Part shown: positions 33,521 through 59,335 of the stretch, one piece after another
How positions within the stretch are numbered: the stretch's first letter is position 1
How the letters are laid out: the number at the start of each line of letters is the position of its first letter
Assembly (NCBI GenBank): GCA_021234155.1
Contig: JAJEKV010000058.1
Coordinates: 3,916,600-3,980,599, forward strand
Reading direction: 5' to 3'
Source of the DNA: Isoetes taiwanensis
Taxonomy: Eukaryota > Streptophyta > Lycopodiopsida > Isoetales > Isoetaceae
DNA: 64,000 nucleotides
Position numbers and translations under genes: made by a program
The notes under the pieces: model-generated
What the model was told of the DNA's origin: nothing
Database searches by the model: none
Seen by the model: only the letters and a program-made list of their open reading frames with translations

Positions 33521-35095
33521 CTATAAGCCCAGTCGCCGCGAAACCTCCAGGTGTTGAGTTGGGTCGCGAAGCACATAGCGAGATGAGAAGAAGAGGAGCG
33601 CCAGTGACGGTGAGCGCGCAGCATCATGTGGAACTCCCCGAGCGGCAGCTGCCGAGGCCCCGCCGCGACGAGCAGAATGAGTACCATATTGGGATGGATT
33701 TAAGCCGATAGCAAGAAGACACTCTCGCCACCACCCCCAGGCAGTCGGATAGGATAAAGGACGCAAAGAGGAAGGAGAGGAGCGAAAAAGAGGGCCGCCG
33801 GACGGAGGATCGAGGAGACGATAAGAACCGGTAGAAATTAGGCGCTGAAGGATAGTGACGGGGCATGCGAACGAAGGCAAGCGAGCTAAAGAAATCGTAT
33901 GACCACGGGCAAGTTGGTCTCCTTTGGAGTGGCGGATAAGAACATCAACATGCGACAAGGAAAAAGGAAGATCACGCCAATTGAGGGCAAGGGCCTCTGA
34001 GATGCGCAAAAAAGTGGCAAAGGAAAGTACGACGAGAGCAGCGCGGACCAGAGAGGAAAAAGAAGCCGCGGGATGCGCGAAGTGGAGAACAATAGAGCGT
34101 ACATGCTGAGGCAGGAGAGGAAGAAAGGTATGAGGGGGGCGAGCCCGACGAGAGGTAGACTGACGAGCCAAAGAGGGTAAAGGTAAAATGGCGGGAGAGG
34201 GAAGGTTGAAAATTTGATGAAAAAAGGATATGGCTGCCGAGGCCGAAGAAATGGAGGAGGGTGACATATGAGGATGATGAAGGGAGGCGAAAAAGGCCGC
34301 AACAACAAAGGGGGAAGCCGAGAGATAAGGAACAGCATGTAGACGGCACCAAACAACAAAGCCGCGGAACATAGCGATGTAAGCCGTGAGAGTAGATGGG
34401 GCGCGGGAGGAAAAAACTAAAGGCAAGGTCGAAAGGAATAAGGGAACCTCATGGGGGGTGAGCAAGCGAGAGGTAGCTTCTTCCACCATCTGCAGCACAT
34501 CGTCCGGAATGGCAACCCCCAACATAGCAAGATGGCCATGAATCCATCGAAACTGAGTGTCCATAGCAGACGCAAACTCGTAGTAATGACGCATGGAGTC
34601 GCGGTCAAAAGAAGGAGTAGGGCGAGCAGCCCGCTCTCGAATGTCCTGTTGGAGATGCTCAAGTTGGGTCTGAACTGACAACTGCTGGGTCATCGATGTC
34701 TGGAGTGCCTGGAGTGTGGCCCGCTGCTGTTGAAGCTCATGCAGTAACTGGGTGAACTCAGGAGAAACTGGCGCGGAAGAAACGGGCGGGGCCAAGGCGG
34801 AAGATGTGTGCGGCAGAGAAGAGAAAAGAGGAGCCATCTGAGTGGGAAAAACAGGAGGAGCGATACCGACAAGAGAAGAGAAAGGAGCAGCAAAGGCTGA
34901 GGGGGACCAAAAAGAAAAAGTAGACGAGACAGAACCCGGCGAGGCAGGAGGAGAAAGGGAACCAGGGTCCAAAGAGTCTGGTTCAAGCGAGAGGGAAGCT
35001 TCGCGTTGACGACGAGAACCAGCAGCGCGAGCGAGCCGTGGGGGAGAAAGCGAAGCTGAAGGAGAAGAGCCGGAAGCGCCTGCTATGGACGGCAT
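33521..35095 (-). CDS. Tyrosine recombinase / integrase (Crypton-like)
   Basis: A 524-residue frame starts at ATG 35095. Residues 1-110 are Ser/Pro/Ala-rich. A coiled-coil-like stretch rich in Gln/Leu lies at 113-157. The core-binding (SAM-like) domain covers about 215-300 (SSRAPSTLTAYIAMFRGFV). The catalytic domain covers about 320-524: Arg364 in FLRISEALAL, Lys391 in RHSKGDQ, His473/Arg476 in GTHSARRGGASAAA, and candidate Tyr507 in SSRYVLRDP. These are the R-K-H-R-Y residues of the family, which cuts and rejoins DNA through a tyrosine link. The block between H-R and Y looks slightly altered, so activity of this copy is doubtful. It lies 58 bp inside the element's left end and is the likely mover of both tandem elements. 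Confidence 0.85.
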   Translation of the reverse strand: MPSIAGASGSSPSASLSPPRLARAAGSRRQREASLSLEPDSLDPGSLSPPASPGSVSSTFSFWSPSAFAAPFSSLVGIAPPVFPTQMAPLFSSLPHTSSALAPPVSSAPVSPEFTQLLHELQQQRATLQALQTSMTQQLSVQTQLEHLQQDIRERAARPTPSFDRDSMRHYYEFASAMDTQFRWIHGHLAMLGVAIPDDVLQMVEEATSRLLTPHEVPLFLSTLPLVFSSRAPSTLTAYIAMFRGFVVWCRLHAVPYLSASPFVVAAFFASLHHPHMSPSSISSASAAISFFHQIFNLPSPAILPLPSLARQSTSRRARPPHTFLPLLPQHVRSIVLHFAHPAASFSSLVRAALVVLSFATFLRISEALALNWRDLPFSLSHVDVLIRHSKGDQLARGHTISLARLPSFACPVTILQRLISTGSYRLLDPPSGGPLFRSSPSSLRPLSYPTAWGWWRECLLAIGLNPSQYGTHSARRGGASAAAARGVPHDAARSPSLALLFFSSRYVLRDPTQHLEVSRRLGL

Positions 35096-35273
35096 TAGCT
35101 CAATGACATGAAAAAAGGAAGGACATTAGAGAACAAAAACAATGAAAAGACAAGCATGCCGCCACGATGACGAATCTAAGGAGGCGCCCCGGCATGCCAA
35201 CGAAAACGGCAACAAGGCGATGAAAAACAAACCACGTTAATGCGTACAATGCACATATGATATGAATGCAGAT

Positions 35274-35384: not shown

Positions 35385-35652
35385 ACCTGTGGCCAATATC
35401 TAGATGGTGATAAGTCAACAAAGGAACCCTTCATCATGGATCCCCAAAAAGAATAAACAATAACGATAAATAATAAGGAAGAATAACAAGTAACTGCGAT
35501 AAGAAGGCAAAGAGGAAAAAACTTACCCATGGGAAAAAATGCATAGACATAAAGAAGACAAAGTGCAACCCGACATATGTTGTCAAAAAAAAAGTGCAAT
35601 CGTGCATGTGGCGGACAAAAAACACATCATAGACAATAAACAAGGTTGCAAA
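35385..35652. repeat. Direct repeat, copy 1, in the recombinase element
   Basis: GGCCAATATCTAGATGGTGA, GGATCCCCAAAA and CCATGGGAA...GCATAGAC...AAGTGCAACCCG occur in the same order at 43893-44133. Internal split repeats are a feature of several tyrosine-recombinase elements. Confidence 0.65.
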
Positions 35653-35654
35653 TT

Positions 35655-35682
35655 AAACGGGAGTGTTGCAGCACTCCCGTTT
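35655..35682. repeat. Left-terminal hairpin of the TTAA transposon
   Basis: AAACGGGAGTG, six bases, then CACTCCCGTTT. The inner arm repeats the terminal motif in the opposite direction, so the end carries two facing copies of the terminus. The right end lacks this second copy. Confidence 0.8.
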
Positions 35683-36816
35683 CAAAGATTCCTTTAGGAA
35701 AAGCACGCCATCTCAAAAATTGGGCTTTTTTAAGAGAGGTTTAAAGTTTCAGGAGTATCAATTTTTTTTTGGGCCTATTTTTGGGGTATTCTTTGGACAC
35801 GACTTTGGTTTTTTGGAGTTAAGCACGTGAAAATAGCAGAATTGAGACATGAGTACGTAATTTTATAGAGGTGGATGTACAAAAAACACAAATTTAGTAA
35901 ACATAATAATAATAATTTCATTACTGTTTTTGTGTTATATCAATAATGGCAATCAATAATAAATGTCAATCAGTAGCCACAACATAAATCCGTCAGAGAT
36001 CTAAATTAAAATCTTCTTCATTCTTCTTGCTGGTCTCAGCTTGATCAGACTCTATCTTTTCACCTTTCTCTGGTGACTTAGGCTTTTCTGTGTTGGTGGT
36101 TGCTTCTGGTATTCTAGCTAGAGCAACTTCTTTCAGCTCTGCAAATGTAGCTTCGTCTTCCAAAGAGCTTGTAAAAGGAGGCTGTATCTCCGAAGATGTC
36201 ATCTTAGCAAAATCAGAATTAGACTTTGCCCCCAACCCTTGATTCTCGTCTGGTAGAGTTTGTAAGGCAGAAAGTCTCATCTTGATGAACTGTACAACCT
36301 CCTTATCAATGTCAACAGCTACACAATTTCGGCCCTTCTTAAGTGCACAAGCAATAGTTGTATTAGAGCCAGAAAATGCGCCGAGCACCCAATCTCTTGA
36401 ACGTGAGAACATGTCCAGAAGATGGTTAATCAGCTTCTGGTAGTGATTCACTATTCTTCCTTGTGCACTAGGGTCCTGCAGCTTCTGTAAAACAGCTGGA
36501 AACTCCAACACGTTTGAAAAGTTCTGGCACGCCGCTGTGTTGAAGTGTTCCATTGTACGTTTCCCATCGAAACTCCAATAAGCCACATGGAGATATTCGA
36601 CCTTACTCCGCAGTCGCGGGCCTCCACCATGGTAATTAATATTTGTTTTATACCTAAGGAACAAAAAAATAAAAAAGGATTTAAGTACAGCCAAAAGAAA
36701 CGTATTCCGGAATAGAAACTCCTAACAAGAATTTAAAAATGCTACAGTTGTAACTACAAAAAAAAAAGAAGGTAATGAAAACAAAAGGACTTGTGTATTC
36801 CAGAATAAGTGCTTAC

Positions 36817-37259
36817 CAAACCAGATTTTCATAACCAGCTTGCACAGGCGAACCAAAATGATTCTTGAAGCTGGCTTCCACAAGGCCGGATTGCATGCTT
36901 GAGTGAAATACAACCAGCCTCCAATGTTTTGCCGTGGTAATTTGCTTTATACCGTCGACGAAAGTGTTAAACTCAGAGTTTTTAAATGGCTGGTCGTCGT
37001 AGCGGCTGTCTTTCAGCTTAAACCCATATGGAAGGTCAGCTATTACCAAGGTAAAATCTTGGGGCTTTATTGATTCGGCTAATTTGGTGCAATCACCGTG
37101 TACTATACAGAACAGGTTATTTTGATTGTACATTGTAAACCGTTCGTAATCGGAGGGCTCAGTATCCAAAACACGCCTGTCCGCCAGCGTCCTCTCTTCT
37201 CACGCTGTCCTGACCAGATGCATGAATCCCTCCGGCAGGTCCTTGTTTTTCTTTTTGCT
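36817..37259 (-). other. Exon with methyltransferase motif IV
   Basis: After the AGCAAAAAG acceptor side and one in-frame TGA, the exon reads VLDTEPSDYERF, then FCIVHGDCTKLAES, then VIADLPYGFKL. 'GDC...ADLPYG' is the catalytic strand-loop of amino-methyltransferases, with DLPY replacing the common DPPY. It ends at a GTAAGC donor. Confidence 0.75.
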
Positions 37260-37539
37260 CTGCAAAAAAGAACGTTTTAGTAACAAGAAAAACAACAATA
37301 TAAAAAACAATTCAACATACCCAGCCTTCAAAATTTGGCGCATATTGGATAATCCTTTCATCCGAGGTTGCGATAGGGTAAAGCTCTTTGCACCTTTCCC
37401 AGCTGTCGACATTTAACTGTTCCATTAAGCATGTTTGACATGTGATGACATTTTTCTGGCTGTAATATAATACAAACGTTAGAACGAAGAAAACTAAAAA
37501 GGAAAGCAACAAGAAAGAATCATTTAAACACTGTAAGCT

Positions 37540-37769
37540 AAAGTGTATTCCAAAATACACTTCGGCCCTCACACTGTAAGGCAAAGTGTATTCCGGAATA
37601 CACTTTGTCTCTTGCGTGAGGGCCAAAGTGTATTCCGGAATACACTTTGACTCCCGCGGACAAAGTGTATTCCGGAATACACTTTGTCTCCCGCGTGTGG
37701 GCCATAGTGTATTCCGGAATACACTTTGTCTTTCGCGTGTGAGCCATAGTGTATTTCGGAATACACTTC
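37540..37769. repeat. Array of six palindromes centred on TTCCGGAA, in an intron of the methylase gene
   Basis: Half-site CAAAGTGTATTCC is followed directly by its complement at 37582-37607, 37624-37649 and 37661-37686. Slightly altered copies lie at 37540-37562, 37703-37728 and 37745-37769. Starts are 42, 37, 42 and 42 bp apart, with spacers containing TCTC(C/T)CGCG. The whole array fits inside the intron 37460-37806. Confidence 0.9.
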
Positions 37770-39734
37770 TTCCTATCAAACAAAAAACCCAAAGTGGCAT
37801 TCTTACTTGTGGAGCTCCTTGGACATTTCTTCTAGTGTAAATTCCTTATCAACAACCTTTTGCAGTAGCCTTTCTAATATATCCATATCTGTGAAGCCCT
37901 GCATTTCTCGCCAGACAGTTATTGTCATTTCCTTTTTGGGGACGTCGGATCCTTTTTTCTTTTCGGAGACCTTTCCTTTCCTTTGCTCGAACATGGTGAA
38001 GATTTCGTTTTGGAGGTCCCAAATCTGCAGAGAAAAAAGCGATGTCAGTGGGAGGGTTGCAGGGGTATTCCAGAATACAAAAGAAACTTACTCTGCCGTC
38101 TCTGAAGGCTAGTTGAAACCAGTTGTCATGTGGTATTAGAGACTGCCGTTTGTTAGCCTCGTCGTATTTGAGGCAGCACTCCACAGCACACGCTTCCTTC
38201 AGTTCCAGAGAGTATTGTGGTTTCTTTAAATCATCTCCATATTTTTCTTTAAATATAACATATTCCCTGTGCATGAACCTGATTTTGTCCACGAAACCCA
38301 TTTTAAGCTTATATTTGTTGTCAACATTGTGCGTGTTGGCAATGTGTCAGGCCACAGTAAACAGCGCAGAGCACACAGTAAACAGCGCAGAGCACAGAGA
38401 GATATCTTGGATTGTTTTTCTCTTTGTACAACTGCCTCCTTGCTTTGAAACTGTGGTTTCCCCCAAGGACATAGTGCATGTAGGTGTCTGCATTTTCTCG
38501 GTCATAGTCCTTGGGGTCCATACACTGGGATCTGTCAACAAGAACAACAATTGGAGCAACATGGGCATTGGGATTGCTCCTTATTCTGTCCTTCAGATTT
38601 CTTAAGTGGTCAGCATAGATTTTGCGAACCTGAAGGGGGCGCTCACCATCTTCATTCTTCGGTGGCAACCTCATGGAAGTTACTGGCAAGTATATTACAC
38701 CTTGCACATAATTGTTCTGATTTATTTCTTCCATCCTCTCTGAGGTCTTGTCCACATTTTTTTCTTTAATGGCCCCAGGTGCCTTGCCCTTTCCCTTCTT
38801 CTTTTTTGGTTGTTCCTCGGGGATTTCTGCAATTTCAAGCTGTTGTGCCTTCTGCTTCTTTGGTTCCTTAGCGACTATGGTGGCTCTTGGTCTGCTAAGT
38901 TTCTTTGGCGGCACTGGGGGGACTTCCTGTTCTTGTTCTTGGGAACCTCCATCTGATGACCTCCCTGAAGTACTAGGAGAAGGTGATGATCCTGATCTAC
39001 CTCCATCTGAATGCTCGGACTCACTGACAGGAAAGTCCTCGCTCGTACTAGAACAAACCTGTCTAATTAGTGAAGACAGGCTTCGTTTGGTCCGGTAGTG
39101 TGAAAAGAAATTGTACAGTGCCTGTGGTTGCACACTGACAATCCGAAAGCTTGCGATGTCTACAACAATGAAGCCTTGGGAGGTCTTGAAGGATAGCCTC
39201 CCCACCTGTCCTCCTTGTCCAGCAACCCCGGAGACTTCTTTTATTGCACCCAGGTTAAGAAACTTGGAGTCCGCATATCGTTTGTTGCCAGCACTCTTGC
39301 AAACGTGTAAAAACGTCAGCGTGCTGTACTTTCCGCCTGCACCCCTGGTTACGAACCACTGCGTTTGGAAATTTTCATATATAGCAGGCTCGTCCGTGTC
39401 AGCGGTGTGCTTCTGAGGGTGTGGACGCTTGACAATCTTCAGAGATTTTTTTGGTGCCCTCTTGCTTCCTTCTTCCCTGCCACTGAAACGTTTAAAACAA
39501 CAATGTTAAGACAGTAAATGGGACCAAAACTGTATTCCAGAATAAGATTTGCTAATCTTCAGCCCTAAAGCCAACAAAAAACAGAAAAACAAGCAAAAAT
39601 ATTGTCTCTTCAACACGATTTTTCATGCTTTGATTGGACTAAAAAGTGGGATGTTCAACCTAAAAAGTGGTTTGTTTGAGCAAAAAAGTGACATGTTTAA
39701 GCCAAAAAAAACAAATGTTTTCAATGAGATAGGC

Positions 39735-39862
39735 AAAATGTATTCTGGAATACACTTTGCTCACACAAGAAGGCTAAAGTGTATTCCGGAATACACTTTG
39801 CACTTCAAAGTGCAAAGTGTATTCCAGAATACAAGCAAAGTATATTCCGGAATACACTTTGG
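39735..39862. repeat. Second array of TTCCGGAA palindromes, intron 1 of the methylase gene
   Basis: Four copies at 39735-39758, 39776-39800, 39812-39836 and 39836-39862, with TTCTGGAA and TTCCAGAA variants. A separate hairpin, TTTGCACTTCAAAGTGCAAA, lies at 39797-39816. Single copies occur at 36702, 36793, 38065, 39531, 40113 and 40168. Confidence 0.88.
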
Positions 39863-39928
39863 CCTACAAAAGTAAATCAACAAACACACGAAAGACATAC
39901 TATGTACTTTACATGCTTACCTGTCCAT

Positions 39929-40261
39929 TATTTTCGCTATGTAAATCAGAATACAGCAAAGCGATGAAGATCGGAAGGCTCGGGCTGGCGACTAAAACTC
40001 TGAATGCGGAATACGCAATTGAGGCGCTCAAATTTCCTTTTTAAAGGTAGGCCATTGTCAGTTGTGTTTTTCTATGTGATGTGAAATACGTCTTGTCCAA
40101 ACACTCTGGACAAGTGTATTCTGGAATAGCATGCATGCAAACAGACAGCAAATGCTGCACACAAAATAGTATTCCGGAATAGCATTTGTATTCTCAAATA
40201 TCGTTAGTCCAACCAACTTGTGAGTTAGTAACAAGACCACAATTCTTTGCAGATGTTTAAC
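39929..40261. promoter_or_regulatory. Shared divergent promoter region of the transposon
   Basis: The methylase gene starts leftward at 39928 and the DUF7869-like gene rightward at about 40262, leaving 333 bp that must hold both promoters. Two palindromic motifs (GTGTATTCTGGAATAG at 40114 and GTATTCCGGAATAG at 40169) lie inside it. A protein binding these palindromes could control both genes. This role is inference. Confidence 0.5.
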
Positions 40262-43200
40262 ATGGTTAATCGCTTCGTGAACAAACTTCCACCATCATTT
40301 GTTTGCTCAAGTACCTCTACTTCAGATGGAACACAAGACGGAGATGCTTCTCGAAGATACTCCGAGTCCAGTAACTAGTAGACTTCCACCACCTTTCCAA
40401 CCCTCTCCAAGTCCAGTAGGAAACAGGCTGCCACCTCCTTTCACTGCCTCACCTGTTGCACGTAGCAATCTTCCACCACCATTTGTACCATCCCCCGACA
40501 CTACAAAGGCTCGACCTCAGCAAAATTTTTCGAAACAGACTACCTCAGCCATTTGTAGTTTCTCCTTCTTCACTTACACAAACAAGGAATACAGCACGTT
40601 CCGAAGACTGCGAGATTGTCCATCGCTTCTCCCACCACGATTTCACTATAAATGAAGACGACCTTGCAGCATCTACTCCTCTTCACACAACCGTGGTGAC
40701 ACATGGGTTTGCAAAATTTCAGTCGGCTATAAGAGACATGTTTGAACGAACTCCTTGTGAAGAAGCTGCAACAACTTTCGCTGGCACATCATATGGTGGC
40801 CCATCTCCTTCATTCAACACTGTACCTCCGCCTTATCCGGGTACAGCTTCACGTGGTTTATTCTCCTCTACAAGCACACCACTAAGGGTAGAGGAGGTCA
40901 CCCCCAGAGTAGAACGCTCTTCAGAAGATGAAGACACCAACGAGGTGCAACGAGATTACATATTCTCTAGCCAGTCCACCAAGAAATTCAAGGTGGATTA
41001 TGGTTTGAGAGCATGCTCATCTGTAAGAAGAAGAAACCTTATGGACGAGCATAAAATGAGAAGACTTTTAAGAAGTAAATACTGCTCATTGGGTTGCATC
41101 AACAAATTTAACATGTCTAAGTTACGAGCAATTAGAGACAACTACAGTTCAATGACATTGGCTGAACAGAATGCCTACTTGGCCTATCATGTAAGACCAG
41201 ACCGCAATACCTTCTTGCACTACATTAACCGTGAAGAAGTTTGCCAAAAATGCTTTATGGTTGTCCACCGTTTAGGGTCCACCAGAATGTCTAGAATACA
41301 CAAAAGATTGGACAAAAATCCATCAATTGATGATCATTGTGGACCAAGAAGAGTTGTAACCATGCATGCCCTTGCTGCTGTGTCATGGATGGAGAAATAT
41401 TTTAGAGAAACGTGTGAGAAGCTACCTAACAGCAACATGTATCATTTGACTGATAACATCACCAAAACGGATGTTTTTAATGAGTACAAAGAGACTTGCA
41501 CTCAGCTTCAGCATATCTCTTACTCACACTTCACCAGACTGTGGAAAAGTGAATTCGGGCTTGTGAAAATTTCCAGGAGACATAGAATGTCTGTTTGCTC
41601 AAGATGTGCAGAATTAAAGAGTCAACGAGAAACTGCAAAGACAGAGGTCAAAAGAAGTAAGATGTTCTCCAATCTCTCACTTGTTTTAAGGAAAATGCTT
41701 TGACCTGATTTCTTCTACAGATATTGTGCAACGGAACCTTGCCAGACATCGTGAACAACAAGCAGCAGAGAGAAGAAAGCTTGCCAAGCACAGAAAAAAA
41801 GCTCTTGAACGTTCGCTGCAATATATGTATGTTGTGATTGATGGAATGGACCAAAAAAAAACTACTACCGCATTTCTTGAACATTCCTAAAGATGTGCCA
41901 GAGGAATGTTTTGTTAAGGTCCACCTTGTAGGAGCTATGGTCTTCAAAGGAAGTCTAAAGTGCAAAGTATTTTTGACATATCCAAACTTGCATGGTGACC
42001 CGAACCTCACAATTACAATTCTTAACAAGGTCCTGTGCGAGCAAGAGCAATTACCACCAGTGCTTTACCTGCAACTTGACAATACTACAAGGGAGAACAA
42101 GAATCAAACACTCTTTGCGTGCTGTGCCATGTTAGTAGAGCTAGAGATCTTTAGAAAAGTGAAGCTCGGTTTCTTACTTGTAGGCCACACTCATGATCAG
42201 ATTGACCAAATGTTCAGCAGATTTTCTGTGCGCCTTAGAAGGAAGAAGGCTTTTTCTCTTCCTACTTTAGTTCGAATTATTGAAGATTCTTACACTCCCA
42301 TTCCAGTGATTGAGCTTCTTAAAGAGACTGCTGACTTCAGAGAGTTTGTTTTCTCTCAACGTTCAGACAGAGAACAAGCTGTGAACAAGTTGAATGATCT
42401 CACCTTCCAACATCACATCAAGTTCTACTTGAAGGATGGCCAAAGCTTCTTACAGGGGAAGAAGTATACCACAACTAAGGACTGGAGTCCACCAGAGGGA
42501 TTACGCTTCCTTAAATATATTCCAGACACAACCTTCATAGAACGTGCTGAGCAACTTCCTCTCAAAAATCCTAAGGAGTCCAAGCAGAAGAAAAGTACCC
42601 CTATGTCATCCTTAAAAGCCATTGAAAATGGATTTTCCTCAGGCTTTAAGTACTTCTTAGAAGAAGATCGGATGTGGTGGAGTAATTTCTTTCTCGAACA
42701 GAAAATTGCTGTATAAAATATAGCTCTAAGACAGTTGCAAGAACCATTTCAATGGCCTAACACCTTCCATTAACCCCAGCACCAAGCAGGTCCAAGCAAT
42801 GCTACATTAGCACCTGCAGTAGAAGAAGACGAGGATCGAGTCATGTACCTCGGGCCAAGACGCAGGAATGAGCCTCAAGGTAATATCACAGAAATTATCA
42901 AAGGTATGCTAATTGCTCTTCCAACTGAGGAGGATGACAAAGGTCGACCTTTATGGATAGCAAAAGTGCTTGACACAGTCAAGGAAGAAGGTTTAGTCAC
43001 TAAACTCAAGATTCATTGGCTTTCAACACGCTCAGAAAATGCTTTTGAAGGTAGATATGAGTTAGAAATGAGAAGCCAAGGAAAAGGGAGAAAGTCCAAG
43101 AAGGTGGGTTGTAGGGATGAGCTGAACCTTAATGACGTGACTATATTGTGCTATGATTTTAAATTGAAATCTGACAATCGTCTACGTCAGAGGACTATCA

Positions 43201-43409
43201 CTTTGCTTAAAAAAGCTTGTAATTACGAGGAAGAGGATGAAGAAGGTGGTGACAATGCTTCACCATCTGTTGATAGTGATGAGGAAGATAACTCAAGCAC
43301 TTCCTCGAGTGACAGTGAAAAAAGTGAAGGTGATGAGGATGGCATAGATGAATATGATGACGTCCTGGATCCCTCTCTCATCACTCCTCACACTTTTGTA
43401 CATAACTGA
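40262..43409 (+). pseudogene. DUF7869-like protein, putative DDE-type transposase
   Basis: Two exons, about 40262-41656 and 41721-43409, around a 64-bp intron (GTAAGA...CTACAG). The N-terminus has repeated (R/N)LPPPF(x)PSP motifs. A Cys-containing, basic DNA-binding-like region follows (RSKYCSLGCINKF, MTLAEQNAYLAYHV, VCQKCFMVVHRLGSTRMSR), as in plant and animal proteins annotated DUF7869. The core shows VVIDGMDQ, LQLDNTTRENKN and LLVGHTHDQIDQMFSRFS, which fit the spaced acidic residues of an RNase H-like DDE enzyme. The C-terminus has a WIAKVLD segment and an acidic Ser tail. Damage: two frame changes near 40320-40560, one in the A run near 41855, and TAA codons at 42714 and 42771. The gene ends 356 bp from the right terminus. 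Confidence 0.7.
41657..41720 (+). other. 64-bp intron of the DUF7869-like gene
   Basis: GTAAGATG at the left and TTCTTCTACAG at the right. Skipping it restores the frame from KTEVKR to IVQRNLARHREQQAAERRK, a basic helix leading into the VVIDGMDQ strand. Confidence 0.8.
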
Positions 43410-43758
43410 GTCTTAGAAAAAGACTGTAAATTTTGCATGTGAATATGAAGATTCTATCTTCAAATTTTGAGAATACTACAGTTTCAGTTACAGACTTACT
43501 TCAATTTTTTGTTAAATATTTTATCCTCTGAAATTTGAGTTTCTCTCTTAAAACATACTTTAAGAACATTTTATTTTTTTAGAAAAGTGACACTTTAAAA
43601 AAGTCAATTATTTCGTTGCACAAAAAAATTAGTCATTTTGGGGGTCAAAAAAAAAATTTCATGCATCTTTTTTTTTTAACCTCATTTTATCCATTTTTTT
43701 GTAAAAAAAAAAAGGAATCTTTGAGGAATATTCCTTTTGCTATCGTTTCAATGATTTG
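43410..43758. other. 3' non-coding end of the TTAA transposon
   Basis: AT-rich with several A and T runs. It holds the subterminal CAAAGATTCC repeat (complement) and GGAATATTCC near 43727. Confidence 0.7.
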
Positions 43759-43892
43759 CTCCCGTTTAATACGCAATCTTGTTAATAACAAAAGGAAAAA
43801 TGAGACCTGGGAATGACCCGTATGCCAAAAAAACAAGGAAACTCAACGCCGGATTCAATGTGGTTGTTATTCTGTTGGAACCGTCAGCTAAC

Positions 43893-44170
43893 ATTGGCCA
43901 ACATCTAGATGGTGATAAGTCATCAAGGGAAAATGGAACCCGTCATCCCGGATCCCCAAAAGGAAATGCAGAAGAGAATGCCACAGATAACCACATGGGA
44001 ATCAAAATGTAAAAAATAACATATAAAAGAGATACATGTCGGAGGGATAACACGTAATTGAGGCTATAAGGCAAACCTACCATGGGAATGTAAAATGCAT
44101 AGACGTAAAAAAGACAAGTGCAACCCGGCAGATGGTGGCCACAAATCTATAGGCAATAAAAGGACAATAA
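43893..44170. repeat. Direct repeat, copy 2, in the recombinase element
   Basis: Counterpart of 35385-35652, with TCTAGATGGTGATAAGTCA and GCATAGACGTAAAAAAGACA conserved. A third, weaker echo of the CCATGGGAA part occurs near 44366. Confidence 0.6.
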
Positions 44171-58840: not shown

Positions 58841-59335
58841 CGCTACAAGAGAATGAGCATTTTTTGTCAGAAAAAGCGTCAGATGGCCTTCACAAAATGG
58901 GCAAGTGTCCAGACCCTACTGGCTGACGATTTACCTGACGCTTATTTTCTGACGCTTTGTTGTCAGAAAAAGCGTCAGGAAAATCGTCGGTTTGTCTGAC
59001 GCTTAAGTGTCATAAAAAGCGTCAGAATAAACGACGTTTATTCTGACGCTTAAGTGTCGCAAAAAGCGTCAGAATAAACGACGTTTATTCTGACGATTAA
59101 GTGTCGCAAAAAGCGTCAGAATAAACGTCGCTTATTCTGACGATAGGCGTCGTAAAAAGCGTCAGAACTAACGCCAGAAAAAGCGTCACATTATTCGTCA
59201 GTTTTTGTGTCAGTTTCTTCGTCACCTGAGTCGTCAAAATCCTCGTCAGTATTATCGTTTGGAATTTCGTCAAATTACGCGTCATCTATTTCGTCAATTC
59301 TTACGTCAGGTACTGGCCAGAAAGTTTGTCACTGT
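58841..59335. mobile_element. CACTA-type (EnSpm) terminus with subterminal repeats
   Basis: CTACAAGAGAATGAGCATTT resembles the CACTACAAGAAA end of plant CACTA transposons. It is followed by about 480 bp of GCGTCAGAATAAACGACG units and GTCAGAAAAAGCGTC palindromes, typical of CACTA subterminal regions. Unit regularity fades rightward. The first two bases of CACTA are altered. No matching right end was seen, so the element may extend past the window. Confidence 0.6.

Follow-up and report, generated by a model that had tools for sequence, protein, structure and literature searches.

We showed that a stretch of 64,000 nucleotides from Isoetes taiwanensis (contig JAJEKV010000058.1, positions 3,916,600 to 3,980,599; this whole stretch is called the window) contains an 8145-bp DNA transposon with two divergent genes, one for a DUF7869 protein, the putative transposase, and one for an amino-methyltransferase. 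The pairing of a DUF7869 transposase with an amino-methylase in one DNA transposon is strongly supported, because divergent gene pairs and related ends recur on contigs of probable fern origin, removal of one fern element restores the frame in which it sits, and purifying selection appears to act on the genes. The methylase gene is a maintained partner of the transposase and not a chance passenger. As the best explanation, to which we give a probability of about one half, the window copy is a decayed autonomous cut-and-paste transposon, and its methylase partner would bind palindromes and methylate its own element, thereby keeping the genes expressed or regulated despite silencing.

Results

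The transposon spans positions 35639-43783 of the window and is bounded by a 25-bp terminal inverted repeat, AACAAGGTTGCAAATTAAACGGGAG versus AACAAGATTGCGTATTAAACGGGAG, with 22/25 identical positions, a score reached by 0/300 shuffles. Both sides are flanked by the 4-bp target duplication AATA (Table 1). Aligned to the fern ends described below, the repeat reads AACAAG(G/A)TTGC(A/G)(A/T)ATTAAACGGGAG, and ATTAAACGGGAG itself was exact at 35652-35663 (+) and 43759-43770 (-). An earlier interpretation of the letters without database searches (the sequence-only reading) had described matching ends with TTAA borders. The inverted repeat is present as described, but it extends 13 bases farther outward, so that the borders had to be moved, and the TTAA lies inside the terminal repeat and is therefore not the target duplication. 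A TTAA transposon of the piggyBac or Kolobok type was ruled out by this position of TTAA together with the AATA duplication. When the joined flanks were used in BLAST for the empty site, related repeats were returned within the window and none across the junction. The flanks at 35390-35590 and 43895-44145 have related repeat pieces in common (80-81% over 71-75 bp). The left end holds its own inverted repeat at 35655-35682 (28 nucleotides, 93%), and the right end a different, weaker one at 43690-43716 (27 nucleotides, 81%).

The protein on the plus strand matched DUF7869 (PF25273) with 176.1 bits against the curated cut-off of 26 (E 7.9e-52, Pfam), which put the earlier assignment above the Pfam cut-off, and the motifs DGMDQ, LDNTTREN and GHTHDQID were present. 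In a 10-row alignment D417, N418, H453-T-H-D456 and D459 were invariant and D336 and D339 nearly so, and from these conserved acidic positions we infer transposase catalysis. The structure model was poor, with a predicted local distance difference test score (pLDDT) of 49 and a predicted template modelling score of 0.28. In this low-confidence model D336 follows strand 330-335, D417 ends strand 411-417 and D456/D459 open helix 455-470, and strands and helices follow one another in the prediction much as in RNase H. Among the 50 Foldseek chains listed, 7 (from 5 entries) were of RuvC, poxvirus resolvase or YqgF types, none of them significant, and the list also included some chromo-barrel, BAH and similar barrels that were likewise non-significant; the resemblance to RNase H in model and search is taken as hints only. 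The name DUF7869 was not found in the literature searched. At the N terminus (window 40252-40560) the protein carries short peptide repeats LPPPF..SP, and several fern copies have SLDSRISV.PY. The window copy is damaged by frameshifts in the N-terminal repeats, a frameshift in an A-run and a stop, placed in Table 1.

The methylase gene, modelled with six exons, is transcribed divergently from the transposase. Its C-terminal minus-strand frame (35996-36721) matched N6_N4_Mtase (PF01555) with 37.5 bits against the cut-off of 26.7 (E 3.3e-9), and motif IV (ADLPYGF) stands ahead of motif I (GAFSGSNTT), the beta-class order that the sequence-only reading had seen. Against sequences of the PDB the methylase piece matched CcrM best (E 3e-4), and MboIIA and DpnA were also present in the 7 matches at E 1 or below; the alignments to all 9 listed records of phage DNA methylases covered 85-94% of the query and were 19-23% identical, and the adenine-methylase models of NCBIfam matched below threshold only (25.2 bits against a cut-off of 292). 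Since CcrM, MboIIA and DpnA are the nearest solved structures, methylation of N6-adenine appears more likely than that of N4-cytosine.

The GT-AG exons of the methylase join into one reading apart from breaks by a frameshift and a stop, in agreement with the splice sites reported before. The pieces of exon 2 showed 35 and 40% identity to the fern reference, and three intron positions are common to the window and the fern copy L059. An intron after RDGR in the window is absent from the fern copies and an intron inside motif I of the fern copies is absent from the window; motifs I and X of the window also differ from those of the fern copies, in which motif I is DLFSGT. In the window gene the frame is shifted near 38340-38420, where there is also a short duplication, and an in-frame stop stands near 37200. 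The claim of two genes between the ends was thus confirmed with DUF7869 and N6_N4_Mtase, while the damage to the genes had gone unmentioned.

GGNHSFKARRQL, described earlier as ParB-like, is present in the methylase gene. A box GG(N/S)HS..ARRQL and the stretch that follows it resemble ParB by eye, and at the same box DUF6551 matched below threshold in the window piece as well as in 4 fern pieces, out of 7 that included the motif IV exon. The structure of the ParB-like exon predicted from a single sequence had a pLDDT of 43.6 and was unusable. The putative DNA-recognition region of this protein is called ParB-like by motif only.

Relatives were found with the degenerate pattern GHTH[DE]xID over a genome collection, giving 13 stretches, 8 of which are contigs of one Trichormus metagenome-assembled genome (MAG). 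In this MAG, DUF7869 was located at 8 places, at 7 of which the open frame is 873-924 amino acids long, and the window methylase matched 29 places on 9 contigs. Trichormus azollae is the symbiont of the water fern Azolla, and the contigs with these genes are probably contaminating eukaryotic DNA of the Azolla fern. They were taken for host-fern DNA because of their introns and a gypsy-like gene around L053, by which cyanobacterial DNA was ruled out for these genes. A test of plant origin by chlorophyll-binding protein gave weak matches only, and this family also matches in a cyanobacterium. In IMG/VR no relatives were found, the two matches being phage-like contigs without a DUF7869 match.

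Twelve contigs of the Trichormus MAG (the fern contigs) were counted: 5 carry both genes, 4 the methylase alone and 3 the transposase alone; L007 (no DUF7869-type match and, by reading, a uvrA-like frame) and the non-fern DUF7869 loci L008, L011, L015 and L018 were left out of the pair counts. The two genes are divergent on 5/5 two-gene contigs, as in the window, and on three of these (L051, L053 and L059) both are enclosed by related inverted ends that start with AACAC or similar; both genes of L059 are damaged. Five of the 7 single-gene contigs (L054, L056, L060, L061 and L062) end at most ~105 bp from the dyads described below, which may reflect a break in short-read assembly, and L055 begins 117 bp ahead of its open frame; neither of these applies to L057.

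The left end of the window element was compared with 6 fern methylase-side ends and the right end with 4 transposase-side ends. At most 2 of 300 shuffles reached the score in 9/10 comparisons, and the tenth, with L056, failed (124/300). Crossed comparisons were mostly weaker (12 to 221 of 300 shuffles), except that the right end of the window matched the methylase-side end of L053 (0/300). The frame in which the L053 element sits looks like Ty3/gypsy pol, a name given by reading of the frame and not by profile, and excision of the element together with one AACA copy leaves an open frame of ~330 codons that runs through the junction. Duplications of 4 bp were thus found in 2 of the 4 elements with both ends, AATA in the window and AACA at L053.

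Eukaryote-like transposon contigs were also noted more generally in prokaryote genomes, namely the L006-L017 contigs of the Trichormus MAG (G003) and L011 in a cyanobacterial MAG. L008 and L015 have an identical contig number, size and match positions, yet their MAGs are named Planctomycetia and Flavobacteriaceae. On L052 (6023-7605) the 3' part of the transposase is duplicated (300 nucleotides, 97%, 785 bp apart), and a second, incomplete end is present.

Selection was examined between the fern copies by non-synonymous divergence (dN) and its ratio to synonymous divergence (omega and dS, respectively). For the ParB-like exon dN was 0.14-0.28 and omega 0.06-0.09 in the 3 of 15 pairs that were computable; for the motif IV exon dN was 0.06-0.13 and 0/6 pairs were computable for omega; for the transposase omega was 0.09-0.17 in 18 of 21 computable pairs. 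Pairs were non-computable where synonymous sites were saturated, and omega is rough at such dS. Both genes look constrained by purifying selection in these alignments. As hints only, the methylase exon of L058 is closest to that of L052 (dN 0.193), the transposase of L058 to that of L062 (dN 0.079), a contig without the methylase, and the transposase of L052 to that of L053 (0.171).

With up to 3 mismatches, TGTATTCCGGAATACA occurred 16 times in the window against 0.23 times in shuffles, and all 16 sites lie within the element. The strict form TATTC[CT][AG]GAATA gave 14 sites, which are all within the element and outside the model exons, 12 in methylase introns 1, 2, 3 and 5 and 2 between the genes. 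Within arrays the relaxed sites start 37-43 bp apart, bar one step of 23 bp. On the fern contigs, dyads of the type GTCGATGC-NNN-GCATCGAC were found in 8/12, with 1 to 15 each, and L061 has a variant dyad, CCGATGC-AGT-GCATCGG, in three copies. In the 9/12 fern contigs with dyads, the sites are always placed between the genes or, where one gene is present, shortly before it, and none were found on L055 (which starts just before its gene), L059 (where the open frames abut) or L057. The half-sites of window and fern, AGTGTATTC and AGTCGATGC, agree at 6/9 positions, a likeness that is suggestive only. Palindrome arrays in such elements are apparently new: none is mentioned in the consulted text on the Ectocarpus element Sola1-1_Ec32 discussed below, and a dedicated literature search was not made.

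The position of these sites bears on what binds them. Repeated sites are commonly bound by transposases, and the fern dyads stand upstream of genes with 24/32 neighbour steps of 41 or 50-52 bp. Such steps are close to four or five turns of the helix and would suit a co-operative regulator. The palindromes might therefore be bound by the transposase or by a host factor, for control of transcription or assembly of a synaptic complex, and the methylase might act elsewhere, for example at the ends. This we consider unlikely, although worth keeping in view, since the strict dyad nearest to an end of the window element is ~1 kb away from it, and the 12/14 strict dyads in methylase introns are unlike the usual subterminal sites of transposases.

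Table 1. Positions of the features of the window element (a dot: no strand)
Feature	Position	Strand	Remarks
Target duplication AATA, left copy	35635-35638	.	
Terminal inverted repeat, left, 25 bp, methylase side	35639-35663	+	22/25 to right repeat; alignment with fern ends
Methylase exon 6, motif I GAFSGSNTT, motif X remnant	35993-36653	-	N6_N4_Mtase match and splice model
Methylase exon 5, motif IV ADLPYGF	36817-37259	-	In-frame stop near 37200; fern copies ADIPYGF
Methylase exon 4	37321-37459	-	Both flanking intron positions kept in fern copy L059
Palindrome array A, methylase intron 3	37544-37765	.	6 TGTATTCCGGAATACA sites, 0-2 mismatches, starts 37-43 bp apart
Methylase exon 3	37807-38024	-	Splice model
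Methylase exon 2: N-terminal region, linker, ParB-like region (38381-38752 and 38092-38346)	38092-39482	-	Splice model
Palindrome array B, methylase intron 1	39739-39856	.	4 sites, 0-1 mismatches
Methylase exon 1 (first codons)	39921-39928	-	Weakest exon, without comparison to any relative
Single palindromes in model introns	36701-36716, 36794-36809, 38064-38079, 39531-39546		
Two palindromes between divergent genes	40115-40183	.	
Transposase exon 1	40252-41656	+	Start uncertain; frameshifts in N-terminal LPPPF repeats; 35-38% identity to fern transposases, long tblastn matches
Transposase exon 2	41721-42713	+	DUF7869 at 41901-42470; frameshift in A-run near 41855; stop 42714-42716
Transposase C-terminal part	42774-43406	+	In frame past two stops; collinear with fern C termini
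Terminal inverted repeat, right, 25 bp, transposase side	43759-43783	-	Aligned with fern ends
Target duplication AATA, right copy	43784-43787	.	

The window reads as eukaryotic, with GT-AG spliced exons and, by reading, retroelement-like open frames, and its scan gave no tRNA and no Rfam match above threshold. Directly beside the element, at 33521-35125 (-), an open frame of 534 amino acids matched Phage_integrase (tyrosine recombinase; E 4.8e-7) and may belong to an element of the DIRS or Crypton kind. Another palindromic array, different from those above and with units of the AAGCGTCAGAATAAACGACGTTTATTCTGACGCTT type ~47 bp apart, was found at 58854-59210 with no open frame of at least 100 amino acids nearby; it is perhaps a non-autonomous element.

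Discussion

In the explanation that we prefer, the DUF7869 protein would be the transposase that acts on the 25-bp inverted ends and makes the 4-bp duplication. Its partner would be a large protein, in which a DNA-recognition region that is ParB-like by motif only is joined to a beta-class amino-methyltransferase. This partner would bind the palindromes between the genes and in the introns and, when bound, would methylate the element there, and the methylation would keep the two divergent genes expressed or regulated despite silencing by the host.

Several results weigh against this explanation. The target duplication was seen neither at L051 nor at L059, which are 2 of the 4 elements with both ends. 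When the window was scanned for any palindrome with arms of at least 8, 27 were found, of which only 7 lie within the element; therefore it is the shared motif, and not palindromes as such, that is confined to the element. The putative binder of the dyads could, as said, be the transposase or a host factor instead of the methylase. With the low-confidence transposase model, Foldseek listed 386 matches at E 10 or better, but not one of them reached E 0.001. For the ParB-like region, no family of Pfam, NCBIfam or PHROGs was over its cut-off and a profile search of the PDB gave no match. In hhalign against ParB proteins (found with PF02195 in the same MAGs) the probability was 0.4% and at least 5 of 60 shuffles scored higher; in a ranked hmmsearch with nine ParB frames among 557, 10/40 shuffled profiles ranked them as well or better. 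A tblastn search for ParB was likewise without support. The ParB-like label of the sequence-only reading thus failed every profile test, and the fern alignment behind these tests is shallow (effective number of sequences 1.4), so that the failures are weak evidence of absence.

Two further points against the explanation also favour the view that the methylase is a chance passenger and that the palindromes are satellite-like DNA with no relation to it. Neither gene of the window copy is intact, so that neither protein can be made as it stands, and the DUF7869 loci on short contigs of three other MAGs had methylase matches of 0, 0 and one weak (G005; E 3e-4, 19.8 bits), none of them convincing, so that a pairing wherever DUF7869 occurs does not follow from the data. 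That 7/12 fern contigs show one gene only would fit the passenger view as well. This view is largely refuted and we regard it as very improbable: pairs with related ends recur on separate contigs, the genes are under apparent purifying selection, 5/7 single-gene contigs stop close to dyads while L055 starts just before its open frame, and a similar pairing is known from brown, green and red algae (PMC12477816, text consulted in part).

The methylase could also serve for autoregulation or timing and not for escape from silencing. Dam methylation gates transposition of Tn10 and IS50 to just after replication, and methylation of ends or promoter might gate the present element in the same manner. 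Adenine-type methylases as the nearest solved structures and the constraint on the methylase gene, which is like that on the transposase, are consistent with such a role; the dyads, placed away from the ends, speak against it, and we hold it to be rather improbable. Returning to methylation at the palindromes, it may tentatively be extended from the single element to a transposon lineage with its own DNA-marking system, a view that we put forward with less than even confidence. A bacterial-type amino-methylase with a recognition region would be joined by cognate centromere-like (parS-like) palindrome arrays that differ from family to family, each family marking only its own copies with N6-methyladenine or N4-methylcytosine (6mA/4mC) and thereby protecting or timing its expression in a plant genome.

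Sola1 elements make a 4-bp target duplication, and a Sola-type duplication of 4 bp was found in the window (AATA) and at L053 (AACA). Statements on the papers cited from here on refer to those parts of their text that were consulted. Sola2 elements have 4-bp AT-rich target duplications (PMC3627910). In Ectocarpus, the 21.5-kb element Sola1-1_Ec32 of the Sola-1 superfamily carries a 1104-amino-acid protein, ParB-like with a methylase of the 4mC/6mA type, opposite to the transposase; its authors suggest that this protein binds and modifies its own DNA, and they cite Iyer et al. 2011 and Petroll et al. 2025 on similar proteins of green and red algal transposons (PMC12477816). Here too the amino-methylase gene is opposite in strand to the transposase (window and 5/12 fern contigs), whereas the element has 8.1 kb and not 21.5 kb. 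Because of the Ectocarpus pairing and the Sola2 duplications, the present transposon most likely belongs to the Sola type, and its accessory gene is of a kind already known. The statement that no plant transposon family with this pairing had been described was uncontradicted for land plants in the literature searched, in which no title or opening of an abstract among the matches listed for ParB, methyltransferase and transposon pointed to a land plant; for the brown alga Ectocarpus the same pairing is in print (PMC12477816).

Among known systems VANC would be the nearest functional parallel. VANC proteins of Arabidopsis VANDAL21 are anti-silencing proteins whose binding motifs form tandem repeats in the introns of VANC21 and VANB21 and upstream of VANA21, and the motifs differ between related elements (PMC5735166). 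The present element is similar in that short motifs are clustered in non-coding parts of the element itself (14/14 strict dyads), with a binder that is here putative; it is unlike VANC in that VANC causes loss of DNA methylation and its motifs stand in one orientation and are not dyads (PMC5735166). The likeness is claimed for the way of working only. VANDAL elements are Mu-like and have other ends (PMC12730594).

DNA transposons with a base-modifying enzyme are also known from fungi, where elements of KDZ, hAT and other superfamilies carry TET/JBP dioxygenases, and there the enzyme acts on methylcytosine (PMC12730594). Eukaryotic mobile elements with captured DNA methyltransferases occur in dinoflagellates and charophytes, and these are retrotransposons with C5-cytosine enzymes (PMC5890265). 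Bacterial and phage ParB-methylases, such as Bce_0392, join a ParB-like domain to an adenine methylase, and nicking activity has been reported (PMC5512222); unlike them, the present protein has a ParB-like region without detectable profile similarity, and those proteins are without a transposase.

In conclusion, the reason for ParB-methylase genes in algal transposons is only conjecture in print, and whether adenine or N4-cytosine methylation plays any role in land plants is disputed. The present analysis extends the pairing to a probable fern, with both genes apparently kept by selection, and gives exact ends and a target duplication for it. The palindromes provide concrete candidate DNA sites for binding and methylation. 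If the preferred explanation is true, the element would have an anti-silencing system comparable to that of VANC, but one that works by methylating DNA.

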